Assembly: GCA_021298155.1 (NCBI GenBank)
Contig: JAJTEN010000033.1
Span: 1-46,520 of the forward strand
From: Sphingobacteriales bacterium
GTDB taxonomy: Bacteria; Bacteroidota; Bacteroidia; UKL13-3
Length of the DNA: 46,520 nucleotides
Reading direction: 5' to 3'
Shown: one piece after another, positions 11,865 through 46,520 of the stretch
Layout: each line of letters opens with the position of its first letter
How positions within the stretch are numbered: position 1 is the stretch's first letter
Program-made: the position numbers and the translations under genes
Notes under the pieces: generated by a model
The model's input: only the letters and a program-made list of their open reading frames with translations
The model's database searches: none
What the model was told of the DNA's origin: nothing

Positions 11865-12224
11865 ATGGGAAAATGCAAATTCTGCGGAGAAAAAGCGGGC
11901 TTCTTAAAAAAGAAACACAAAGAATGTGAACTTAAATTTAATGAAGGACAATTGAAATATATTGAACTGATTAAATCAAGTATTCTAGGAAATCGCGACT
12001 TACAAGAATTGAGTGAAAATCTTTTATCTCTTAAACAATCTAGTTTTTTAAATGATGAACACCATATTAACTTGGTAACAGACGCATTTGACCAAGTGGT
12101 TTCAAAGGTTTTGGAAGATGGTATGTTATCGGTAGCAGAGGAAGAAAAAATTACGCGATTTTGTGATTTCATGCAATTGGGTCAGGATATTTACCCTTTT
12201 TATTTCAAAAATCTGAAACATTAA
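11865..12224 (+). CDS. Zinc-ribbon protein, N-terminal fragment of a split gene
   Basis: 119 residues. It opens with a CKFC...HKEC zinc-binding pair (Cys4, Cys7, His18, Cys21) followed by a helical region ending in FCDFMQLGQD. From memory of the family, this helical domain should lead through roughly 30-40 more residues into a beta-rich domain of the type encoded at 12242-12595 in another frame. The final residues here (IYPFYFKNLKH) do not resemble the family and look like out-of-frame read-through. Function unknown. Probably the front half of a pseudogene or of a misassembled gene. Confidence 0.75.
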   Translation: MGKCKFCGEKAGFLKKKHKECELKFNEGQLKYIELIKSSILGNRDLQELSENLLSLKQSSFLNDEHHINLVTDAFDQVVSKVLEDGMLSVAEEEKITRFCDFMQLGQDIYPFYFKNLKH

Positions 12225-12241
12225 TTTGGGTATTCCCACAG

Positions 12242-12595
12242 GTGGAATATTATGAACAAAGAACCCGAACAGAATATCAAGGAGGTAGCCACGGAGTAAG
12301 CATAAAAGTAGCACGGGGCGTTTATTATAGAACCAGCTCGTTCAAAGGTAAGCCTGTTCAAATATCTGAAATGAAATATATTGGAACTGGCTTACTTGCA
12401 CTTACAACAAAACATGTTTACTTTGGTTCACCCGATAAAAAGTTGAAAATACCTTACAATAAGTTAATTTCAATTGAACCCTACGAGGATGGCATTGGAT
12501 TGCATAAAGATGGTGTTTCAGCGAAACACCAAGTGTTTAAAAATATAGATGGCTGGTTTACACACAATGTAATTGCTAATTTAAATCAGTTATAA
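12242..12595 (+). CDS. C-terminal fragment of the same split zinc-ribbon protein (PH-like beta domain)
   Basis: 117 residues are counted from a GTG codon, but the frame is open from 12167. The upstream residues (YLPFLFQKSETLIWVFPQ) look like genuine family sequence leading into VEYYEQRTRTEYQGG. The rest (YYRTSSFKG, TKHVYFGSPDKKLKIPY, DGIGLHKDG) resembles a small PH-like/GRAM-like beta domain that normally follows the zinc-ribbon helical domain in one chain. No independent start or ribosome site is evident. The frame differs from the upstream fragment, and the junction lies at about 12180-12192. Confidence 0.7.
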   Translation: MEYYEQRTRTEYQGGSHGVSIKVARGVYYRTSSFKGKPVQISEMKYIGTGLLALTTKHVYFGSPDKKLKIPYNKLISIEPYEDGIGLHKDGVSAKHQVFKNIDGWFTHNVIANLNQL

Positions 12596-12672
12596 GTCTG
12601 ATTAGCCCCATAACTCCTTATTGTAGAATTCATAAGGCCACCAAGACACAACTAAAATTTGATTATTTTTTT

Positions 12673-12680
12673 TATATTTG
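12673..12680 (+). promoter_or_regulatory. Possible -7 promoter box (TATATTTG)
   Basis: This is an exact match to TAnnTTTG, 23 bases before the ATG at 12704, inside a 108-base AT-rich gap. No well-spaced -33 TTG box is visible, so support is moderate. Confidence 0.4.
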
Positions 12681-12703
12681 GCAGATTATTATAAAAAATT
12701 TAC

Positions 12704-14815
12704 ATGCGTAAACCTATATCCTTTGTTAACTCAATTGCCTTATTACTCACACTTAGCTGCTTTATTTTTGCCTATTCTAGAATAGAAATAATAGATTTTA
12801 ATAAGCAAGGTATAAGCTTTAATACAAAAACTAAGGTACCAAGAAAAGATAGAATGGACCTAGCTTGGGAGCAAGAATTTGAGCTTACCAAAGATCCATT
12901 GTTAAACGAAGTGCCCAAGGAGCGATTGCTTAAAGCGTGGCAATACCAGCAAACGCTTTTGCAACAACAAAGGGGTTTAGGCAAAGCAGCTATACCAGGG
13001 GTTAATTGGGTGGAAAGAGGTCCGAATAACTGCGGAGGTAGAACCAGAACTTTATTGGTAGACCGCAACGACCCAACCAGAAAAACAGTATGGGCCGGAG
13101 CGGTAGCGGGGGGATTATGGAAAACCACAGACATCACCCAAACAGCACCTAATTGGACACCCTTCGATGATTTCTTTCAAAATTTAGCAATAACACATAT
13201 CGATCAAGCGCCTAACAACGGACAAATTATGTATTTCTGTACCGGTGAGGGAAATAATAATTTAGATGCAGTAAGGGGTTTAGGTGTATGGAAAAGTAGC
13301 AATGGCGGAAATACTTGGAACCAACTTTCAAGTACAAATAATTCTAATTTTCATTATTGCCAGAAAATAGTTTCTATTGGAAATGGAGACACCGTATTAG
13401 TGCTCACAAAAACAGGTTTATACAGATCAGCGAATGGTGGAAACACTTTCACAAGAGTGCTTGGAACAGGTATTGCAAGTGCTGGTGGGAATATTGCGTA
13501 TGACTTAGAAGTAATGAAAAATGGAACCATGTATGTTACCATGAGCAGCGGTGCAAGCAATGGTGGTTCTATGCATAAATCTTTTAATAGCGGGGTTAGT
13601 TGGACCAATCCGCTTACCTTACCAAGCTACCTCAACAAAGATGAAATGGAAATTGCCGTATCAGATAATGATACAAATGTTATTTATTCATTGGTAGAAA
13701 ACAGCGGACGAATAGTTGGCATTATAAAATCTAGTAATGCTGGACTCAGTTTTGATACCACAGCTGCACACCCAATTGATGCAGACCCAGGTGTATCGCA
13801 GGCAGCCTTTCGAAAGGATTTTAGTAGAGGTCAGGGTTGGTACGACTTAAGTTTAGCAGTTGACCCAAACAATACCAATGTAGTAGTTGTTGGAGGAGTT
13901 GATTTATTTAAAACCAGCAATGGAGGCAGCAGCTGGCAACAATTATCGCATTGGTATGGTGGTTTTGGCTTCCAAGAAGTTCATGCCGATCAACATTATG
14001 TGTGTTTTGCACCCGGAAATTCAAATGTATGTTATTTTACAAACGATGGTGGAATGTATGTAAGTACTAACTTTACACAAGCCGGGCCAACCATTACCAG
14101 CAAGGAATTAAATTATAATTCTACCCAATTTTATGCTTGCGACATTCATCCCAATGCGGGCTCAAACCAATATTTAGGTGGAACCCAAGACAATGGATCA
14201 CATGCATTAAATTCTGCCACCGTGGGCAGTTCTATTGAAGTAACTGGTGGAGATGGCGCATTTTGCCATATAGACCAAGATCAACCACAATTTTGGTTCA
14301 CTTCTTATGTATACACCAGTTATTACCGTTCTTCAAATGGTGGCGCAAGCTTTACTAGTGCGTTAAACACCTCGCAGACTGTAGGAAGTTTTATTAGTCC
14401 GAGCGACTATGACGATGCCAACAACAAAATGTACCTGGCGGGTAATAACGGATTCTTTGTAAGGTGGGACAACCCACAAACAGGAAACTCAATTGCATTT
14501 GATACGGTTCCACTATTTAATAACGGACGTGTTACCCATGTAAAAGTATCTCCAAACAATAACAACAGGGTATATTTTGGTTTAAATAATGGTAGAGTCA
14601 TTCGAATAGACAATGCCCATATTTTAGCAGGAACTGATGCGCATATCAATAATGTAACTGGCATGCCAACTGGCAGCGTTTCTTGCATAGAGGTAGAATC
14701 TGGCAATGAAAATCATATTGTAATTACCTATAGCAACTACGGCGTAAACAGTGTATGGGAAACGAAGAACGGCGGAACCAGTTGGACAAGTATTGTAACG
14801 GCTTTGCCAATGTGA
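12704..14815 (+). CDS. BNR/Asp-box beta-propeller secreted protein, N-terminal fragment of a split gene
   Basis: 703 residues with an N-terminal signal/hydrophobic segment (IALLLTLSCFIFAYS). The body is a sortilin/VPS10-like or glycosidase-like propeller: the conserved entry WVERGPNNCGGRTRTLLVD, AGAVAGGLWKT, and several Asp boxes (SNGGNTW, ANGGNTF, SNGGSSW, KNGGTSW). In related Bacteroidota proteins this kind of propeller continues, after the last Asp box and a short 'LP' turn, through one more blade to a segment like ANVRxDML...THGRG. Here the frame stops right after TALPM, and the ANVRTDML segment appears in the next frame. The natural product would be a single secreted protein ending at 16263. 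As it stands this fragment lacks a sorting domain and could not be exported by T9SS. Confidence 0.85.
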   Translation: MRKPISFVNSIALLLTLSCFIFAYSRIEIIDFNKQGISFNTKTKVPRKDRMDLAWEQEFELTKDPLLNEVPKERLLKAWQYQQTLLQQQRGLGKAAIPGVNWVERGPNNCGGRTRTLLVDRNDPTRKTVWAGAVAGGLWKTTDITQTAPNWTPFDDFFQNLAITHIDQAPNNGQIMYFCTGEGNNNLDAVRGLGVWKSSNGGNTWNQLSSTNNSNFHYCQKIVSIGNGDTVLVLTKTGLYRSANGGNTFTRVLGTGIASAGGNIAYDLEVMKNGTMYVTMSSGASNGGSMHKSFNSGVSWTNPLTLPSYLNKDEMEIAVSDNDTNVIYSLVENSGRIVGIIKSSNAGLSFDTTAAHPIDADPGVSQAAFRKDFSRGQGWYDLSLAVDPNNTNVVVVGGVDLFKTSNGGSSWQQLSHWYGGFGFQEVHADQHYVCFAPGNSNVCYFTNDGGMYVSTNFTQAGPTITSKELNYNSTQFYACDIHPNAGSNQYLGGTQDNGSHALNSATVGSSIEVTGGDGAFCHIDQDQPQFWFTSYVYTSYYRSSNGGASFTSALNTSQTVGSFISPSDYDDANNKMYLAGNNGFFVRWDNPQTGNSIAFDTVPLFNNGRVTHVKVSPNNNNRVYFGLNNGRVIRIDNAHILAGTDAHINNVTGMPTGSVSCIEVESGNENHIVITYSNYGVNSVWETKNGGTSWTSIVTALPM

Positions 14816-16263
14816 GAACAGACATGCTAAAGATGCGTGGCTTTGATAAACAAGTTATGGCTGCTACCCACGGAAGAGGAATATTTACAAGCAATGTATT
14901 TATGCCTCCTAGTGCCGACTTTTTTGTAAACAGACGCGTGGCTTATGTGAGTTCTATATTGCAATTTACCAACACCTCTGTAGGTGCACTTAGCTATAAT
15001 TGGGACTTTGGTGATGGCACCTTTAGCACAGCTCAAAACCCAAGCAAGCAATACTTTGCACCTGGATTTTATAATGTTACCTTACAAATTAATGGTGGTG
15101 CACAAACAAAAACAATTAACGCATACATACAAATATTACCGTATAGATCGGTACCCTATTTGGTTGGAAATGGTGGTAATTTTGAAGTTAACCCTACCGA
15201 CTTTGGTCCAGAAACCATTAGCGGAACCGAGTTCCAAAGAGGTAATTCAACCGTTTCTGGTAAAAATGGTGTAAATAGTGGTAGTAATGCATGGGTAACT
15301 GGCTTAGTAGGCAATTACGCCAATAATACCCACAGTATGTTATACTCACCAAATTTCAATTGTACAGCTAGCGGTACATATACATTGCGATTTAGGGTTA
15401 AAAACAGGTTCGAAATAAATTATGATGGGTATATTGTTGAATATAGCACAGATTTAGGTTCAAGCTGGACCAGCCTTGGTAATACTGTTCTTACCAATTG
15501 GTATGACTTTGCAAATGGAACTACCAATACTGCCTTTCCTAGATTTCAAGCATTCTTTAATGCCACCAATACCGCATTTAACCAAAAACAATATAATGTT
15601 TCCTTCTTAGCTGGCAACCCAAAAGTGGCTTTTAGGTGGGTGTTTAAATCTGATGCAGGGGCACAAGAAGTTGGAATGGCCTTGGATGATATTGAATTAT
15701 TAGGACCAAACAATACAGCCTTACCCGTTCAGTTAATTCAATTTACAGGTGTTGTGTTGAGTTCAGACAAAACCCAACTGAATTGGTTGGTTGCAAGCGA
15801 AAAAAATAATGCAGGATTTGAAATAGAGAAAAGTGAAGACGGCTTGCACTTTTATTCGATTGGATTTGTTAAAGGACGGGGAAATAGTGAGCAAACCGCA
15901 GCATACAGATTTACAGATGAAAATGCAGATCAAGAAAAACGCTATTACCGTTTAAGACAAAGAGATATAAATGGCACAGAAAGCTTGAGTAAAGTGATAT
16001 TCTTTGATGGAAATAAATTGAGTCAAAAATTGTTTCAATTTGCCTATCAAACCAATGAAAACACAATCTTACTTACCAGTTTTGAAAATGATTTACAATA
16101 CACCATTTACAGCCAGAACGGCCAACTGGTTCAAAGTGGAAAAACAACAGGTGAACTGAACCTATTGCGTTTAGATAATCTTGCTAAAGGTATTTATTTA
16201 CTAGAGGTAAAAAATAGCAAAGGCCAGAGACAAGTTGAAAAGTTATTGAATCTTGGAAATTAA
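14755..16263 (+). CDS. C-terminal fragment of the split propeller protein (PKD domain and T9SS type A sorting domain)
   Basis: The first 15 or so residues overlap the upstream fragment out of frame and are probably not real coding. Recognisable sequence begins at GFANVRTDML (from about 14799) and ATHGRGIFTS, the last propeller blade. Then come a PKD domain (YNWDFGDGTFS), a jelly-roll-like region with YLVGNGGNFE...ALDDIELLGP, and a fibronectin-like segment (LNWLVASEKNNAGFEIEKS). The end is a type A sorting domain (LLRLDNLAKGIYLLEV). There is no signal peptide, so this half is not a stand-alone secreted protein. It ends 6 bases from the convergent rsmG stop, with no visible terminator. Confidence 0.85.
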   Translation: MGNEERRNQLDKYCNGFANVRTDMLKMRGFDKQVMAATHGRGIFTSNVFMPPSADFFVNRRVAYVSSILQFTNTSVGALSYNWDFGDGTFSTAQNPSKQYFAPGFYNVTLQINGGAQTKTINAYIQILPYRSVPYLVGNGGNFEVNPTDFGPETISGTEFQRGNSTVSGKNGVNSGSNAWVTGLVGNYANNTHSMLYSPNFNCTASGTYTLRFRVKNRFEINYDGYIVEYSTDLGSSWTSLGNTVLTNWYDFANGTTNTAFPRFQAFFNATNTAFNQKQYNVSFLAGNPKVAFRWVFKSDAGAQEVGMALDDIELLGPNNTALPVQLIQFTGVVLSSDKTQLNWLVASEKNNAGFEIEKSEDGLHFYSIGFVKGRGNSEQTAAYRFTDENADQEKRYYRLRQRDINGTESLSKVIFFDGNKLSQKLFQFAYQTNENTILLTSFENDLQYTIYSQNGQLVQSGKTTGELNLLRLDNLAKGIYLLEVKNSKGQRQVEKLLNLGN

Positions 16264-16269
16264 TATCAT

Positions 16270-16905
16270 TTAGAAAATATAGACCAATTTTTTTGTTTCG
16301 AAGAATTCTTCCTCAAAATAATTTTTGAGCGGAATTTCTTCGATTACAAGTTTTTTATTGAGCTGCTTGAGCACTTTAAATTCCTCTTTTAAATCGCCTC
16401 CTTTTAAAAAGATATAGCCATTAATTTTAGTATTAAACTCTTCCTTTGCATCAACATATTGTTGGGTCCAACGGTATAATTGATCTGCAGGGGCAACAGC
16501 TCTGGCAACTATAAAATGAAAGTTTTCTTTAAGCTGCTCTACCCTACCTATAGCAAAATCTGTGTTCTGCAACTGAATGGCTTCAGAAACACCCTCAGCT
16601 ACTTTTATTTTTTTAGCTATAGAATCTACCATAGTAAAAGTAGATTCTGGAAACAGGATTGAAAGTGGAATTCCAGGAAAACCTCCACCTGTACCTATAT
16701 CAAGTATCCGTGTTCCCGGTTTAAAGGAAATAAACTTAGCAATGGCCAAACTATGTAAGACATGTTTTTCGTAAAGCGATTCAATGTCTTTTCGTGAGAT
16801 AACATTGATGCGCGCATTCCAATCTTCATACAAAGTTTTTAACTGCGCAAACTGAGCGTGCTGCGAAGCACTTAACTCAGGAAAATATTTTTCTATGATT
16901 TCCAA
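16270..16905 (-). CDS. rsmG: 16S rRNA (guanine527-N7)-methyltransferase RsmG
   Basis: RsmG (GidB) methylates N7 of G527 in 16S rRNA using S-adenosylmethionine. The 211 residues are full length: EDWNARINVISRKD in the N-terminal helical part, the SAM-binding loop DIGTGGGFPGIPLS (about residues 69-82), VDSIAKKI, and the ARAVAP motif. The start is unusual. The codon is TTG, because a stop (TAA, shared with the upstream glycosyltransferase frame) lies directly before it and the next Met is deep inside the fold, so a non-AUG start is required. The TTG abuts the upstream stop codon, suggesting translational coupling. Confidence 0.95.
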   Translation of the reverse strand: MEIIEKYFPELSASQHAQFAQLKTLYEDWNARINVISRKDIESLYEKHVLHSLAIAKFISFKPGTRILDIGTGGGFPGIPLSILFPESTFTMVDSIAKKIKVAEGVSEAIQLQNTDFAIGRVEQLKENFHFIVARAVAPADQLYRWTQQYVDAKEEFNTKINGYIFLKGGDLKEEFKVLKQLNKKLVIEEIPLKNYFEEEFFETKKLVYIF

Positions 16906-17646
16906 TTACCAATTCTTTTGGTGTTTTCTGAACAAACCAATTGTTCCAAAAACATAAATATAAAACAAATACAATACATCAAGTATTGGGGTAAACCAAA
17001 TAAGCGACATGGTTTTTAACCGTTTGTAAACCCCATATAAAATAACTGTTTGAACCAAATAGCGCAATGCATATACCCCAAGGATTAAACGAAAATCAAA
17101 CGAAGTAAATAACAACAAACCAAATAGCACATAGAAAATAAGCAAAGTAGCATAATAAGCGCCTAAAAAAGCCTTGTCTCTACTTTTGTAAAATTTACCC
17201 GTACTGTTATGCCTACTTTTTTGTCGCTGCCAATCATCAAAATTCCTTTTAGGTTCAGAATAAACAAAACTTTGAGGGTCTATTTGTACACGCACATTAT
17301 TGGATGTTGCAGCCTGATTAACGAACAAATCATCGTCGCCGCTCAAGATATGGTTGTGACTAGCAAAGCCTTTATGTTTAAAAAATAGGGTTTTGTTGTA
17401 TGCTAAATTTCTCCCTACACCCATAAAAGCATGTTTACCTATTGCAGCAGAAAAATAGGCCATAGCTGTAAAAGCCGACTCAAACCTAATAAATAAATTA
17501 AGCAATGAATTATACTTTTTATAAGGGGCATAACCCAACACAATCTCGGTATTGGGCGAGAATTGCGACTGCATTAAACGAAGCCATTGATTGCTTGCAG
17601 GAATACAATCTGCATCAGAAAAAAACATCATCCCAACTACAATCAT
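16906..17646 (-). CDS. Family 2 glycosyltransferase, C-terminal fragment of a split gene
   Basis: 246 residues. The opening residues MIVVGMM overlap the upstream fragment out of frame. Real family sequence starts at FFSDADCIPAS, which carries the metal-binding DxD (DAD). It continues with QWLRLM, FIRFES, the GxGRNLAY segment, the GDDDLFVNQ acid motif and a QKSRH acceptor-side motif. C-terminal hydrophobic segments anchor the enzyme in the inner membrane. The first half of the GT-A fold, including the nucleotide-binding start, is in another frame (17615-17899), so this fragment alone should be inactive. The ORF ends directly against the rsmG start. Confidence 0.85.
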   Translation of the reverse strand: MIVVGMMFFSDADCIPASNQWLRLMQSQFSPNTEIVLGYAPYKKYNSLLNLFIRFESAFTAMAYFSAAIGKHAFMGVGRNLAYNKTLFFKHKGFASHNHILSGDDDLFVNQAATSNNVRVQIDPQSFVYSEPKRNFDDWQRQKSRHNSTGKFYKSRDKAFLGAYYATLLIFYVLFGLLLFTSFDFRLILGVYALRYLVQTVILYGVYKRLKTMSLIWFTPILDVLYLFYIYVFGTIGLFRKHQKNW

Positions 17647-17899
17647 TCACCACAATCACCTCAAAATTAGGGTAATCTTGATCCAAAAATAGATGTAAGT
17701 TTTTTTCTAAATTTTTGTATTCGTTTCTAGCTGCAATGATGATTGAAACCGGGGGTAATTGATTATTAAAATAAACGTCTTTGGGCTTATAAAACGATAA
17801 GCGAGAAAACACACCCGCATAATAAAATATTTGTGCAAAAGCAGCTAGCACAAATAAAACAAATAAAAACAACAGCCAACTATTACTTATTTCCAACAT
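17615..17899 (-). CDS. Family 2 glycosyltransferase, N-terminal fragment of a split gene
   Basis: From the ATG at 17899 the fragment has about 94 residues: a membrane segment (LLFLFVLFVLAAFAQIFYY), then the start of a GT-A domain (PPVSIIIAARNEYKNLE ... FEVIVVNDCSWDD). The usual family continues for about 50 residues before reaching the DxD block. Here NDCSWDD is followed by VFF and a stop, while FFSDADC follows in the neighbouring frame. A TTG at 17950 is also in frame, but the ATG fits the membrane anchor better. Probably the front half of a disrupted gene; it may make polysaccharide or glycolipid when intact. Confidence 0.8.
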   Translation of the reverse strand: MLEISNSWLLFLFVLFVLAAFAQIFYYAGVFSRLSFYKPKDVYFNNQLPPVSIIIAARNEYKNLEKNLHLFLDQDYPNFEVIVVNDCSWDDVFF

Positions 17900-17983
17900 A
17901 TTGGCAAAGGTAAAATTTAAAATAAGTTTGAACCAATCGGATATCAACAAGGTGTGAATAGTTGCAGCAATTCGAATGATTTA

Positions 17984-41289: not shown

Positions 41290-44200
41290 TTAATGTATTA
41301 CAATAAATTTTTGTTCTTTGTATTGGCGACTCTCACTTGTGATAAAAAGCATATAGGTTCCCTCACTAAGGTTGTCGATTTCTAATGGGAATAAATTCAT
41401 TCCTACTTCGCTGTGTATCTTATGGTAAACTTGTTTACCTAGCACATCTAAAACAGTAATTGTGATTGGCTCGCGCATGAGCTCCTTAAACTGGATCCAA
41501 AAATTACCCATATTTGGATTTGGAAACAGGCTATATTGCATAGATTCTTCAACAATTGGTATTGAATTTGAAATTTCACCACCACCTAATTTTGGATCTA
41601 CATTCCAATTTGAGCCGTCTTGCAAGTTTACATACTTTAGAACGCCTGAGCATGGTAATGACCTAACTTGAATGAACATACTCATGGTATCCCTGCATCC
41701 TTCAGCGCCTACTGCAACTAAGGTTACTATATAATTTCCAGCATTTGTATATTTCTTATTAAATATAAATGTATTATTGGAATCCATGGTTCCATCTCCA
41801 AAATACCAATAGTATTTATTTATCCATCCCTGACCCATGTATTTGGAGGTATTGTAGAAATTAAAATTATTATTATCTAAACATTGAACCTGGTAATCTG
41901 TATTAAATGAGGCACTAGGTCCACTTAATCCAGCATGTATCTGAATTGGTTTAGTTTGGCTAGACATACATCCAACAGAATCAATAGAAACTAATGTTAT
42001 TTGATAGGTACCAGCTTCAGGAAAACCTTTGCTTGGATTCGTTCTAATGGAACTTGTACCATCTCCAAATGTCCATAAATAAGTATTATTACTACCTCGT
42101 GTTAAGTTATTGAATTTAACTATATTTTGGCATTTACATTCACACAGCGAATTGTCAAAACTAAAATTAGCAACACTCGCATTAAAAGCTCTACTCACAG
42201 TAACTTGTTGAATGGTAGTATCTGCACAACCATACAAATCTCGAGCTATTAAACTTACTTGATATAAACCATTTAAAGGATAGGTATATGCTGCAGTAAC
42301 TCCTTTGGCGGTATCTGATAAAGTATTTAAATCGCCAAAATTCCAATGAAATGTATTAGCGTTTTTAGACAAGTTATTGACTAAAATAGTGTTAGAGCAA
42401 GTATTATTATTTAGGTTAAAATCTGCAATAGGTGCTCCTTGAATATGAAAATATTGGCTTAGCGTATCATAACAAGCCCCATTAGAAACTACAAACGCCA
42501 AACTATGTCCACCGATGCTTGGACTATCTACAACTATGCTATCTCCCCATCCAATTAATTCACCATCCCACAACCACTTTTGCAAACTCACATTTTGGGA
42601 ATTACCAATTGCGATAATGGTATTAGAGCATGGAATTACCTGATAGTTAAATGTTGCACTTGGTGGATAAACACCTAGCCATTGAGGTGCTGTAATATTC
42701 TGTGAAATGGTTTGAGAACAACCAACACCCTGATATGCGGTTAAACTAACCGAATAAACTCCTGCCATTGCAAAACCATGAATGGGAGCCGTTGAGGAAT
42801 CTAATTTAGAGTTATCTCCAAAATTCCATACATAAGATCCACCATTTAGAGAGGTATTATTAAACTGAATAGCTTGAGAACAAGCATCTACACTGTAATT
42901 AAATGACGGAACAGGCTCTAAATTATTATTTACACTAATTCCCCTTCTTAAAGTATCTGTGCAACCATTCTCTGCAACATTTATCATGGTAACCAAATAC
43001 CAATTTACAGCAGTGTAGGTATATGTAAATTCAATAGAATCATAAAACAATGCTCCCCCATCTCCCATATTCCAATAGTTGCCTATACTGTTACTAGATG
43101 TGTTTGTAAAATGAATTGCAGTTCCACAGGTACTTCCGGTAGAAAAATTGGCCGTAGGTGATTCCTTGATTTCTATCACTTGGTAGGCAGTATCATAGCA
43201 ACCGTTTGACCCCATGGCAATCAATTGAACAGCATATACTCCAGAATTTGTATACTTTTTATTGTAAACAAATGAATTAGTGGTATCTGTACTACCATCA
43301 CCAAATGTCCATCTATATCGGTTAATCCAGCCATTACCTTTAAAGTTGGAGGTATTAGAAAAATTAAAGGTGTTTCCATGTAAACATTGAACCGGAATAT
43401 CTGAAAGAAAAGAAGCTGAAATACCATTTCTACTTTGTCCAATGCTAATTGTTTGTGTGGCAGTATCAACGCAATTACTAGAACTAATAGCAACTAATTT
43501 TACCACATAGTCTCCTGCATCTAAAAAACTCTTGCTAACCTGGTTGCCAGATGCCATAGTGCCATCATGAAATAACCAAATCAATGAAGTTGAATGTGAA
43601 GATGTGCTTGTAAACCTAACTTTTTGTGAACAAGAGTCTACAACCAATATATAGCTAAAACTAGCAACAGGATTTACGCCTAATGAAGGGTTAATTTGAA
43701 CAAATCGCTCCATGGTATCTGTACAACCACTTTCATTACGCACAATTAATTGCACCTTGTATGTTCCTGCATTTGAATAAATATGATCCGGATTTTTAAG
43801 CACACTCGTATTTAACAAACCTGCATTTTGATCCCCAAAATTCCATACATATTCACTTGCACCAAAAGAATAATTATTAAACTGAACTGAAGTGGCACAT
43901 TGGTTTGCAGTAAATGAAAATACAGCATTTGGCTTTGGCAATACAGTAAATAAAACGCTCATGGTATCTGCGCAATCCCCTGTTCCTTTTGCTACCAATG
44001 AAACTGTATAATCACCCGGATTTAAATCTAAATCAAAGGTTTGTGTTGTATAACTACAAGTAAACACAAAGCTGCTATTTGTTGATGCAAAAGTCCACTC
44101 GTAGCTATTCGCATTACTAGACAAATTATGTACTGAAATATTACCACTGCATCCAGTTTGATTAAGTTCAAAGGAAGCAACTGGTCCTGCTTGAACATGA

Positions 44201-46520
44201 ACCTGCAAGGTATCGTATGCTACACAATTATTTGATGATCCTATTTCAGCAACCACGTTGTATCTACCTGCAGCATTATATCGATACATCACAGGAGAAT
44301 TTCCAATTACAGTTGTATCAGAACCATCGCCAAAATACCATGTTACACTTCCAATTGAACCAACTGATATACTTGAATAATTTTGAAATGCAAATAGATT
44401 TCCACCAATACATCTCGCTGTATCGTTTTGCCATAATCTTGGTAAAGGTTTTGGCAATATTGTAATTAAAGCGTTCGCAGACGACTGACAAGCAGCAAAT
44501 GTATCAATGCTAAATACCGTAATGGTAAAATTCCCTTCTTGAGTATAGCTATGTGAAAAACTGCTCAAAAAACTTGTATCGCTTTCTCCATCTCCATAAA
44601 GTGCAATGTACTTTACAGCACTTTGTGGATTTTGAATATGCACAGTATACATATTGTTATTCAAGCATTGATTGGCATCATTTAAATTAAATGTAGCCTG
44701 TGGAATTGGCACCAAATTAAGAATTAAACTTACTGTGCTATCACAACCAGCAGCATTCATTAACACTGCACTATATACTCCAGCAGTGTTATAGGTATTA
44801 CCATTAAATAAATAAGAAGAACCTGCACAAATATAGACAGTGTCTGTGCTACTTGTGGGTGTGCAACTATATCCAGCATCAATGGTAGAGTTGTGAATAT
44901 TGACCCCAGTTCCCAATAAATTTAATACAATGGTAGGACTTAAACCTGTAGTGACATTTGCATCACTATTTCCATCTGTTCCGGCCGCTACGCTTTGGCT
45001 TGTAAGTCCTCTTTGTGGAAATAAAATCCTATACTCACCGCTTGAATCAATCAAAAAATTATAATAACCTGGATTCCCCGATGCATCATTTGTGGTAACA
45101 GTAGAATCTATTAGCGTAAAATTAGATCCAATATTTTGAAAAAGATAAATTTTCTCATCATTCATCCCCTCACTAGCTGGCTCATCTTGCAGGCCATTAC
45201 CGTTTAAATCTCTCCATACATAATTACCAATAGAACCACCATTGAAGTATCCTGCATCAATACTCACATTGTCTTTATCAGTGCCAGTTCCTAATTCATT
45301 AATAGTTATTAAACCAGAAATTCCATTTGCATTGGCATCATTATTTCCATTCAACTGTGGAGCCTGATTAATTATTTTTGTGAAGGTATACTGTAAATAA
45401 TTAGGCTCAAACTTTACATAATACTTTCCAGATCTCAGCTCGATAAATTTATAATAACCAGGTTCTCCAGAAAAATTATTTCCGGATACAGTTGAGTCCA
45501 ACAACACATCATCTCCACCCCCAATCATACTGTCTAATCCAGCGCTATATAAATATACCTTTACCCCATTTAAACCATAATTAACTGGTTCGTCTTGTAA
45601 ACCATTTTTATTTGAATCAATCCAAACTAAATTACCAATAGATCCCAGCGATGATGAACAATTGGTAAACATACCTATTTGATTAGGAGAAGCTGGTAAT
45701 AATCTCCCACTAGAGCCTAAAACATCTGCTCTACTCACCTGATAATAAACAGTATTATTCATTACTTTGTTGGAAGGCGTGCCAACAGGAACACGCATTG
45801 GCCATGTAAATACGATACTATCTAATGCGGGTAAATTAGATGACCTCACAATTTTAATTGCAGTAACACTGCTAATATCTGAAGGAGGAGTTGTGGTCCA
45901 AACTGGTGCCGAGCAACCAGTAGGATTGACAGCAGGAGAAAAATCTGAATAACAAGGATTGAAAACCGTGTTATAAAATACCGTTGAATTTATATCATTT
46001 AATGTAACAGGTGCAACCAAATTAGCAAACCATTCTGAACCTCGAGAATCTCCAATAAATGGGAATACATCAATCAAAGTTAGGTCTCTTGCCGCAACAT
46101 TACCTTCATTTCTTACTGATATTTTATAGGTTAATAATCCACCTTCTTTAGCATTAGAATTCAATGGAAAATATACATAATCTGAATCACAAGCTTTTTG
46201 TCCTTTGTAAGCGATGAGTGCTACTGCAGAAATTACAGTTGCAGAAACGCTGCCACTTATTCCTCTTGGGAAAATGGCAGGTGCATCTCCGCTCATATGC
46301 ATTCTATTTAAAATACTTCCAGGGCTAGTGCCCGGTGTAATAACCGCTCTAAAATTAAATGCATATGTAGCGCCATTTGCTGGAATATTTCCTAAATTCC
46401 ACGATAAAATTTGCCCATTTACAACAGGTGTAATTGTATTTGAACCAATTACTATGGATGAAGAACCCGGTACATAGCGTAATCTTGAATCTAATGTATC
46501 TAGCAATACCACATTTTGTG
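41290..46520 (-). CDS. Giant T9SS type A surface protein: DUF11, SdrD B-like and PKD repeats (5' end outside window)
   Basis: At least 1742 residues; the frame runs off the right edge, so the true start and signal peptide are not visible. A GTG at 46512 is only an internal codon. Domains in order: one or two DUF11-like modules (VVLLDTLDSRLRYVPGSS; NEGNVAARDLTLIDVFP), two SdrD B-like calcium domains (GNLVWIDSNKNGLQDEP; GNYVWRDLNGNGLQDEP), a DTVYICAGSSYLFNG linker, twelve PKD-like modules (typical YVWNFGD, YLWTFGDGTS), and a type A sorting domain (YSLFPNPNMGNFWIQF ... LSEGTYMLFI). Likely a long surface stalk or adhesin exported through T9SS. A small basic ORF follows in the same operon. Confidence 0.9.
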   Translation of the reverse strand, partial: QNVVLLDTLDSRLRYVPGSSSIVIGSNTITPVVNGQILSWNLGNIPANGATYAFNFRAVITPGTSPGSILNRMHMSGDAPAIFPRGISGSVSATVISAVALIAYKGQKACDSDYVYFPLNSNAKEGGLLTYKISVRNEGNVAARDLTLIDVFPFIGDSRGSEWFANLVAPVTLNDINSTVFYNTVFNPCYSDFSPAVNPTGCSAPVWTTTPPSDISSVTAIKIVRSSNLPALDSIVFTWPMRVPVGTPSNKVMNNTVYYQVSRADVLGSSGRLLPASPNQIGMFTNCSSSLGSIGNLVWIDSNKNGLQDEPVNYGLNGVKVYLYSAGLDSMIGGGDDVLLDSTVSGNNFSGEPGYYKFIELRSGKYYVKFEPNYLQYTFTKIINQAPQLNGNNDANANGISGLITINELGTGTDKDNVSIDAGYFNGGSIGNYVWRDLNGNGLQDEPASEGMNDEKIYLFQNIGSNFTLIDSTVTTNDASGNPGYYNFLIDSSGEYRILFPQRGLTSQSVAAGTDGNSDANVTTGLSPTIVLNLLGTGVNIHNSTIDAGYSCTPTSSTDTVYICAGSSYLFNGNTYNTAGVYSAVLMNAAGCDSTVSLILNLVPIPQATFNLNDANQCLNNNMYTVHIQNPQSAVKYIALYGDGESDTSFLSSFSHSYTQEGNFTITVFSIDTFAACQSSANALITILPKPLPRLWQNDTARCIGGNLFAFQNYSSISVGSIGSVTWYFGDGSDTTVIGNSPVMYRYNAAGRYNVVAEIGSSNNCVAYDTLQVHVQAGPVASFELNQTGCSGNISVHNLSSNANSYEWTFASTNSSFVFTCSYTTQTFDLDLNPGDYTVSLVAKGTGDCADTMSVLFTVLPKPNAVFSFTANQCATSVQFNNYSFGASEYVWNFGDQNAGLLNTSVLKNPDHIYSNAGTYKVQLIVRNESGCTDTMERFVQINPSLGVNPVASFSYILVVDSCSQKVRFTSTSSHSTSLIWLFHDGTMASGNQVSKSFLDAGDYVVKLVAISSSNCVDTATQTISIGQSRNGISASFLSDIPVQCLHGNTFNFSNTSNFKGNGWINRYRWTFGDGSTDTTNSFVYNKKYTNSGVYAVQLIAMGSNGCYDTAYQVIEIKESPTANFSTGSTCGTAIHFTNTSSNSIGNYWNMGDGGALFYDSIEFTYTYTAVNWYLVTMINVAENGCTDTLRRGISVNNNLEPVPSFNYSVDACSQAIQFNNTSLNGGSYVWNFGDNSKLDSSTAPIHGFAMAGVYSVSLTAYQGVGCSQTISQNITAPQWLGVYPPSATFNYQVIPCSNTIIAIGNSQNVSLQKWLWDGELIGWGDSIVVDSPSIGGHSLAFVVSNGACYDTLSQYFHIQGAPIADFNLNNNTCSNTILVNNLSKNANTFHWNFGDLNTLSDTAKGVTAAYTYPLNGLYQVSLIARDLYGCADTTIQQVTVSRAFNASVANFSFDNSLCECKCQNIVKFNNLTRGSNNTYLWTFGDGTSSIRTNPSKGFPEAGTYQITLVSIDSVGCMSSQTKPIQIHAGLSGPSASFNTDYQVQCLDNNNFNFYNTSKYMGQGWINKYYWYFGDGTMDSNNTFIFNKKYTNAGNYIVTLVAVGAEGCRDTMSMFIQVRSLPCSGVLKYVNLQDGSNWNVDPKLGGGEISNSIPIVEESMQYSLFPNPNMGNFWIQFKELMREPITITVLDVLGKQVYHKIHSEVGMNLFPLEIDNLSEGTYMLFITSESRQYKEQKFIVIH
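41650..44710 (-). repeat. Twelve PKD-like repeat units
   Basis: Twelve modules of 75-90 codons, most with W.FGDG, AG.Y.V.L and GC.DT motifs. Modules 6 (about 43165-43430) and 12 (about 41650-41930) are far more alike than the rest, pointing to a later segmental copy. Confidence 0.8.

Follow-up and report, generated by a model that had tools for sequence, protein, structure and literature searches.

Three consecutive split genes in a draft Sphingobacteriales genome probably reflect local assembly errors of a genome-wide class

The DNA analyzed here, a stretch of 46,520 nucleotides referred to as the window, is the entire contig C57 of a Sphingobacteriales genome of 2.50 Mb in 71 contigs (completeness 98.7%, contamination 0.11%). 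Judging from its relatives, this genome is most likely a MAG, as are all of the 14 named relatives heading the match listing. At 11.9–17.9 kb of the window, three consecutive genes are each distributed over two reading frames, with an intact rsmG (GidB) gene between the second and the third (Table 1). The initial annotation had described these genes as split, and our comparison with related genomes, which have the frames intact, confirmed it. We used G004, the closest relative with the region as a contiguous copy, as the reference throughout.

Table 1. Split genes, junctions and the intact gene between them in the window, together with split genes on other contigs of the same genome.
Feature	Position	Strand	Description
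Gene 1, hypothetical protein, two frames	11865..12595 (11865-12224 + about 12191-12595)	+	Compared with single open frame in relatives
Junction 1 (J1)	12191..12202		103 nt of G004 missing; a few nt at the join fit neither flank well
Gene 2, secreted protein, two frames	12704..16263 (12704-14815 + about 14796-16263)	+	Domains and relatives' frames
Junction 2 (J2)	14785..14800		139 nt missing; held by G004, G006, G001, G007
rsmG (GidB), intact	16270..16905	-	Pfam GidB 4.1e-35; 211 aa in this genome and in G004
Gene 3, family 2 glycosyltransferase, two frames	16906..17950 (17950-17615 + about 17628-16906)	-	Glycos_transf_2
Junction 3 (J3)	17626..17629		137 nt missing; held by G004, G006, G001, G007
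RF3 and SusC-like receptor, both split	C51
TPR-like gene, split	C4
Omp28-like gene, split	C35
gpmI, split, no loss	C2:61671-63198		Exact 16-nt tandem duplication near the C terminus

Of the 59 other genomes searched, 3 contain the first gene, which forms an open frame of 279–281 aa in G004, G024 and G035; the G004 copy gave no Pfam or NCBIfam match at the cut-offs used. Gene 2 combines a weak sortilin/Vps10-like match in its N part with a PKD domain and a T9SS type A sorting tail, and in genus members where it is not cut by a contig it is a single open frame of 1229–1251 aa. The Glycos_transf_2 match of gene 3 lies in the N piece and is also found in the intact G004 copy of 385 aa. Matches to this gene occur in 59 of 60 genomes (this one counted and paralogues included), and the protein has about 374–424 aa in most genomes of the same family, with short frames in G011, G036, G013 and G016.

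Each of the three losses shifts the frame relative to G004. Their lengths leave remainders of 1, 1 and 2 on division by three, so that two are equal, and not all different as the initial annotation had it. The argument made there that no single recombinase or programmed frameshift accounts for the lesions nevertheless stands; a programmed frameshift, which would leave both halves in place with a small slip, was rejected because 103–139 nt of coding sequence are absent at every site. The proposal that each split fits a short-repeat deletion does not hold. Strictly counted against G004, the joins share 1, 0 and 1 nt with the lost flank at J1, J2 and J3, respectively; with mismatches tolerated, the values are up to 2 at J1, 3 with G004 and 4 with G006 at J2, and up to 1 at J3. 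Using G006 DNA, we also searched the rest of the genome for the stretches missing at J2 and J3 and recovered only short, chance-like matches (at most about 30 nt) and, for J3, the junction's own flank.

To place these lesions in context, 1,107,497 bases of the genome (a 44% sample) were compared with 1,226,764 bases of G004. This gave 468 G004 genes with a counterpart in the genome, covering 524 kb of compared coding sequence, and 474 genes in the reverse direction. An in-frame loss was counted if it spanned at least 12 aa, and a frame-shifting loss if the gene gave two separate matches. One row on C26 (a doubtful 21-aa in-frame gap whose surrounding N terminus aligns poorly) was left out before counting, and gpmI was entered as split and excluded from the deletion count. 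Deletions of 48–296 nt affect 10/468 genes of the genome, compared with 1/474 when the direction is reversed (Fisher p = 0.006). The difference persisted after removal of the three window genes (7/465 versus 1/474; Fisher p = 0.037). The deletions lie on contigs C57, C4, C51, C35, C19, C24 and C7.

Split genes numbered 8 of 468, namely the three window genes and those for RF3, a SusC-like protein, a TPR-like protein, an Omp28-like protein and GpmI, and none of the eight is a 1–2 nt frameshift. Three further genes lost 12 aa or more with the frame kept: that for SucB (37 aa), one with weak heptosyltransferase matches (16 aa) and one for an unnamed protein of 849 aa (27 aa). The reverse direction yielded a single split among 474 genes, caused by a small indel, and one in-frame loss of 28 aa. 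Frame-shifting events make up 7/10 of the deletions, compared with the 2/3 expected without selection, a ratio of 7 to 3 that is approximate because the detection thresholds for in-frame and frame-shifting losses differ. Among 16 other genus members, 90 gene-by-locus comparisons turned up neither a split nor an in-frame loss reaching 12 aa, a control that consists of 12 distinct genes, mostly from this region. The initial annotation regarded everything outside the three genes as undamaged. For the window this is borne out, since the 21 other genes with a usable G004 comparison, rsmG among them, agree in length to within 11 aa; for the genome it is not, given the seven affected genes elsewhere.

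Genes for RF3 and SusC-like proteins can be lost in nature. The damage extends to genes with which a cell can scarcely dispense: 36 profile positions are missing from the sole gene above the sucB cut-off (two further E2-like genes fall below it), and the sole phosphoglycerate mutase found is the split gpmI. Searches of the genome gave no match for gpmA, and none for apgM except the same split gpmI gene.

Because similar losses occur throughout the sampled part of the genome and key metabolic enzymes are struck, mistakes of assembly are the most likely source of the lesions, rather than biology. From the sequence comparisons, the three split genes of this draft genome are very probably local assembly errors, belonging to a class that extends genome-wide, and the living organism probably has intact copies. 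The assembly would have fused two sequence ends at scattered points, omitting roughly 50–300 nt, and a few wrong or duplicated bases may sometimes have been left at the join. A living cell with all these lesions is difficult to imagine, and for a draft assembly they are ordinary. The initial annotation had offered systematic dropping of segments by the assembly in this region as one of two readings; dropped segments are now the better supported of the two, whereas the restriction to this region is not supported, since the lesions are spread over the genome.

Errors of this kind are described by Chen et al. 2020 (PMC7111523), who report local assembly errors in MAGs, 13 of them in one genome of 1.13 Mb, and note that uncurated MAGs propagate incomplete or incorrect protein-coding genes. 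The resemblance to those errors lies in wrong joins within otherwise good scaffolds, in the incomplete or wrong genes that result, and in a density of similar order (10 in 524 kb of coding sequence here). In contrast to our cases, which come solely from comparison with relatives, the published errors were found by missing read support. The authors also describe a second kind of error, where Ns are placed although there is an overlap, and duplicate sequence is left behind (PMC7111523). The gpmI duplication resembles this type, minus the Ns, although such duplications are not in excess in the genome.

From sequence features, we infer a technical cause for the joins. Unmerged overlapping contig ends were assessed through exact short tandem duplications, which numbered 6 in 1.11 Mb of the genome and 15 in 1.23 Mb of G004; without an excess, this mechanism is not supported as the general cause. 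In predicted fold the ten missing segments are unexceptional, and their G+C tends only mildly upward (mean rank about 0.68 of 1); as they share no extreme of composition or fold, a coverage dip driven by composition is not indicated.

The alternative that fares best is a real and very recent decay of the whole genome, in which short deletions would have struck many genes too recently for stop codons or relaxed constraint to appear. We consider it unlikely. In its favor, very recent real deletions would likewise be frame-blind and leave constraint visible, the lesions are missing from the relatives compared, and plain sequence runs across the joins, the 731,660 bases of the genome checked being free of the N runs that scaffold joins would leave. 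Natural pseudogenization by short deletions also yields genes split over two frames with DNA lost. It differs from what we observe in that the three genes carry no point lesions, that sole copies of central enzymes are hit elsewhere, and that the losses are frame-blind in size with repeat-free joins. Decay of this extent would have damaged the sole gene above the sucB cut-off along with the one phosphoglycerate mutase found, and the absence of 1–2 nt frameshifts from the eight splits also speaks against it.

All six pieces into which the three genes are split have pN of 0.06–0.17 and pS of 0.54–0.72, similar to their intact neighbors. Decay of these three genes was rejected as a candidate, since neither relaxed constraint nor further lesions were found in them. 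Contrary to the expectation for a decaying genome, internal stops are no more common than in the reverse direction (14 versus 21 genes). Nearly all of them fall within the first 33 residues or beside the last residue, the exceptions being a stop at the lesion of the Omp28-like gene and one in a 109-aa frame of doubtful status (C2, 39532), and the 21 genes of the reverse direction include one doubtful mid-frame case. Early stops of this sort fit start codons placed too far upstream.

Under the strict count against G004, all ten joins have 0–1 nt in common with the lost sequence. The SusC join reaches up to 4 nt with mismatches tolerated and includes some 2 nt of filler; a 7-nt duplication marks the TPR-like join, and several unmatched bases the Omp28-like one. 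Since the joins were scored against G004 and not against the organism's own lost sequence, homology at the noisier ones (J2, TPR and Omp28) could be longer and is less certain. Short-repeat (slippage) deletion was rejected as a source, with no copy of a direct repeat left and 0–1 nt shared at 10/10 joins. Joins with 0–1 nt or filler would suit end joining, but neither Ku (PF02735) nor the LigD polymerase (TIGR02778) was found in the genome, using models that, among 14 control genomes, each detected B. subtilis alone; non-homologous end joining was rejected accordingly. For the deletions to be real, a Bacteroidota-type population would need some 35–50 very young, repeat-independent deletions of 50–300 nt per genome, central metabolic genes included, produced by end joining free of Ku and LigD, which we regard as very improbable.

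A more specific form of assembly error, in which co-occurring strains were assembled as a mosaic and strain-variable stretches bridged wrongly, is highly improbable as the explanation. DNA identity to G004 does depend on the contig (74–86%), and protein identity is high (88–99%) at both lesion sites on C51, as a mosaic could produce; against this, contamination is only 0.11% and the stretches missing at J2 and J3 are not found on other contigs. As a separate observation, protein identity to G004 at the two lesion sites within C51:2080-20000 exceeds that of much of the genome, possibly through recombination or mixed strains.

We also asked how unusual it is for three lesions to lie within 5.44 kb, using simulations based on 7 and 10 events. 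With about 36 lesions per genome, the rate when the three are left out, such clustering arose in 9% of simulated genomes; with 48, the overall rate, it arose in 19%. Within the sampled length alone it had P = 0.01 and 0.04 at the respective rates. At the genome scale (P = 0.09–0.19), the three lesions therefore need no local cause; a mild local excess in the window is possible, and the window was picked for its clustering. Real local decay of the 6-kb region by short-repeat deletion, the other reading in the initial annotation, draws on the sampled-length values and is scarcely credible, given joins without a repeat of useful length, constraint on both halves, the intact rsmG amid the lesions, an unremarkable genome-scale clustering and the same lesion type in 7 of 465 other genes.

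The result offers no new biology and is a caution for draft genomes. Despite high completeness and low contamination, about 2% of the compared genes (10/468) are damaged, and such scores do not reveal short losses. Lost functions, split genes and pseudogenes called from an assembly of this kind can be spurious. Here the problem was exposed by a read-free test, in which frame-shifting losses are compared with in-frame ones, using a close relative and taking each direction in turn.

Two further features lie at the ends of the window. Positions 1–31 form a tandem ACTTAAA array within which the contig end falls, and tandem units of 14 or 21 nt made of near-heptamers occur on contigs C2, C20, C24 and C40 of this genome (G000) and on C1 and C4 of G004. 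At 41290–46518, a frame of 1742 aa, open at the contig end, looks on visual inspection like a surface protein rich in PKD with a tail of T9SS type. Among the G004 stretches compared, none matches its DNA over more than 200 nt, and just past it the G004 gene order is continued by contig C66 of the same genome. Either an insertion or a misjoin may underlie the frame.
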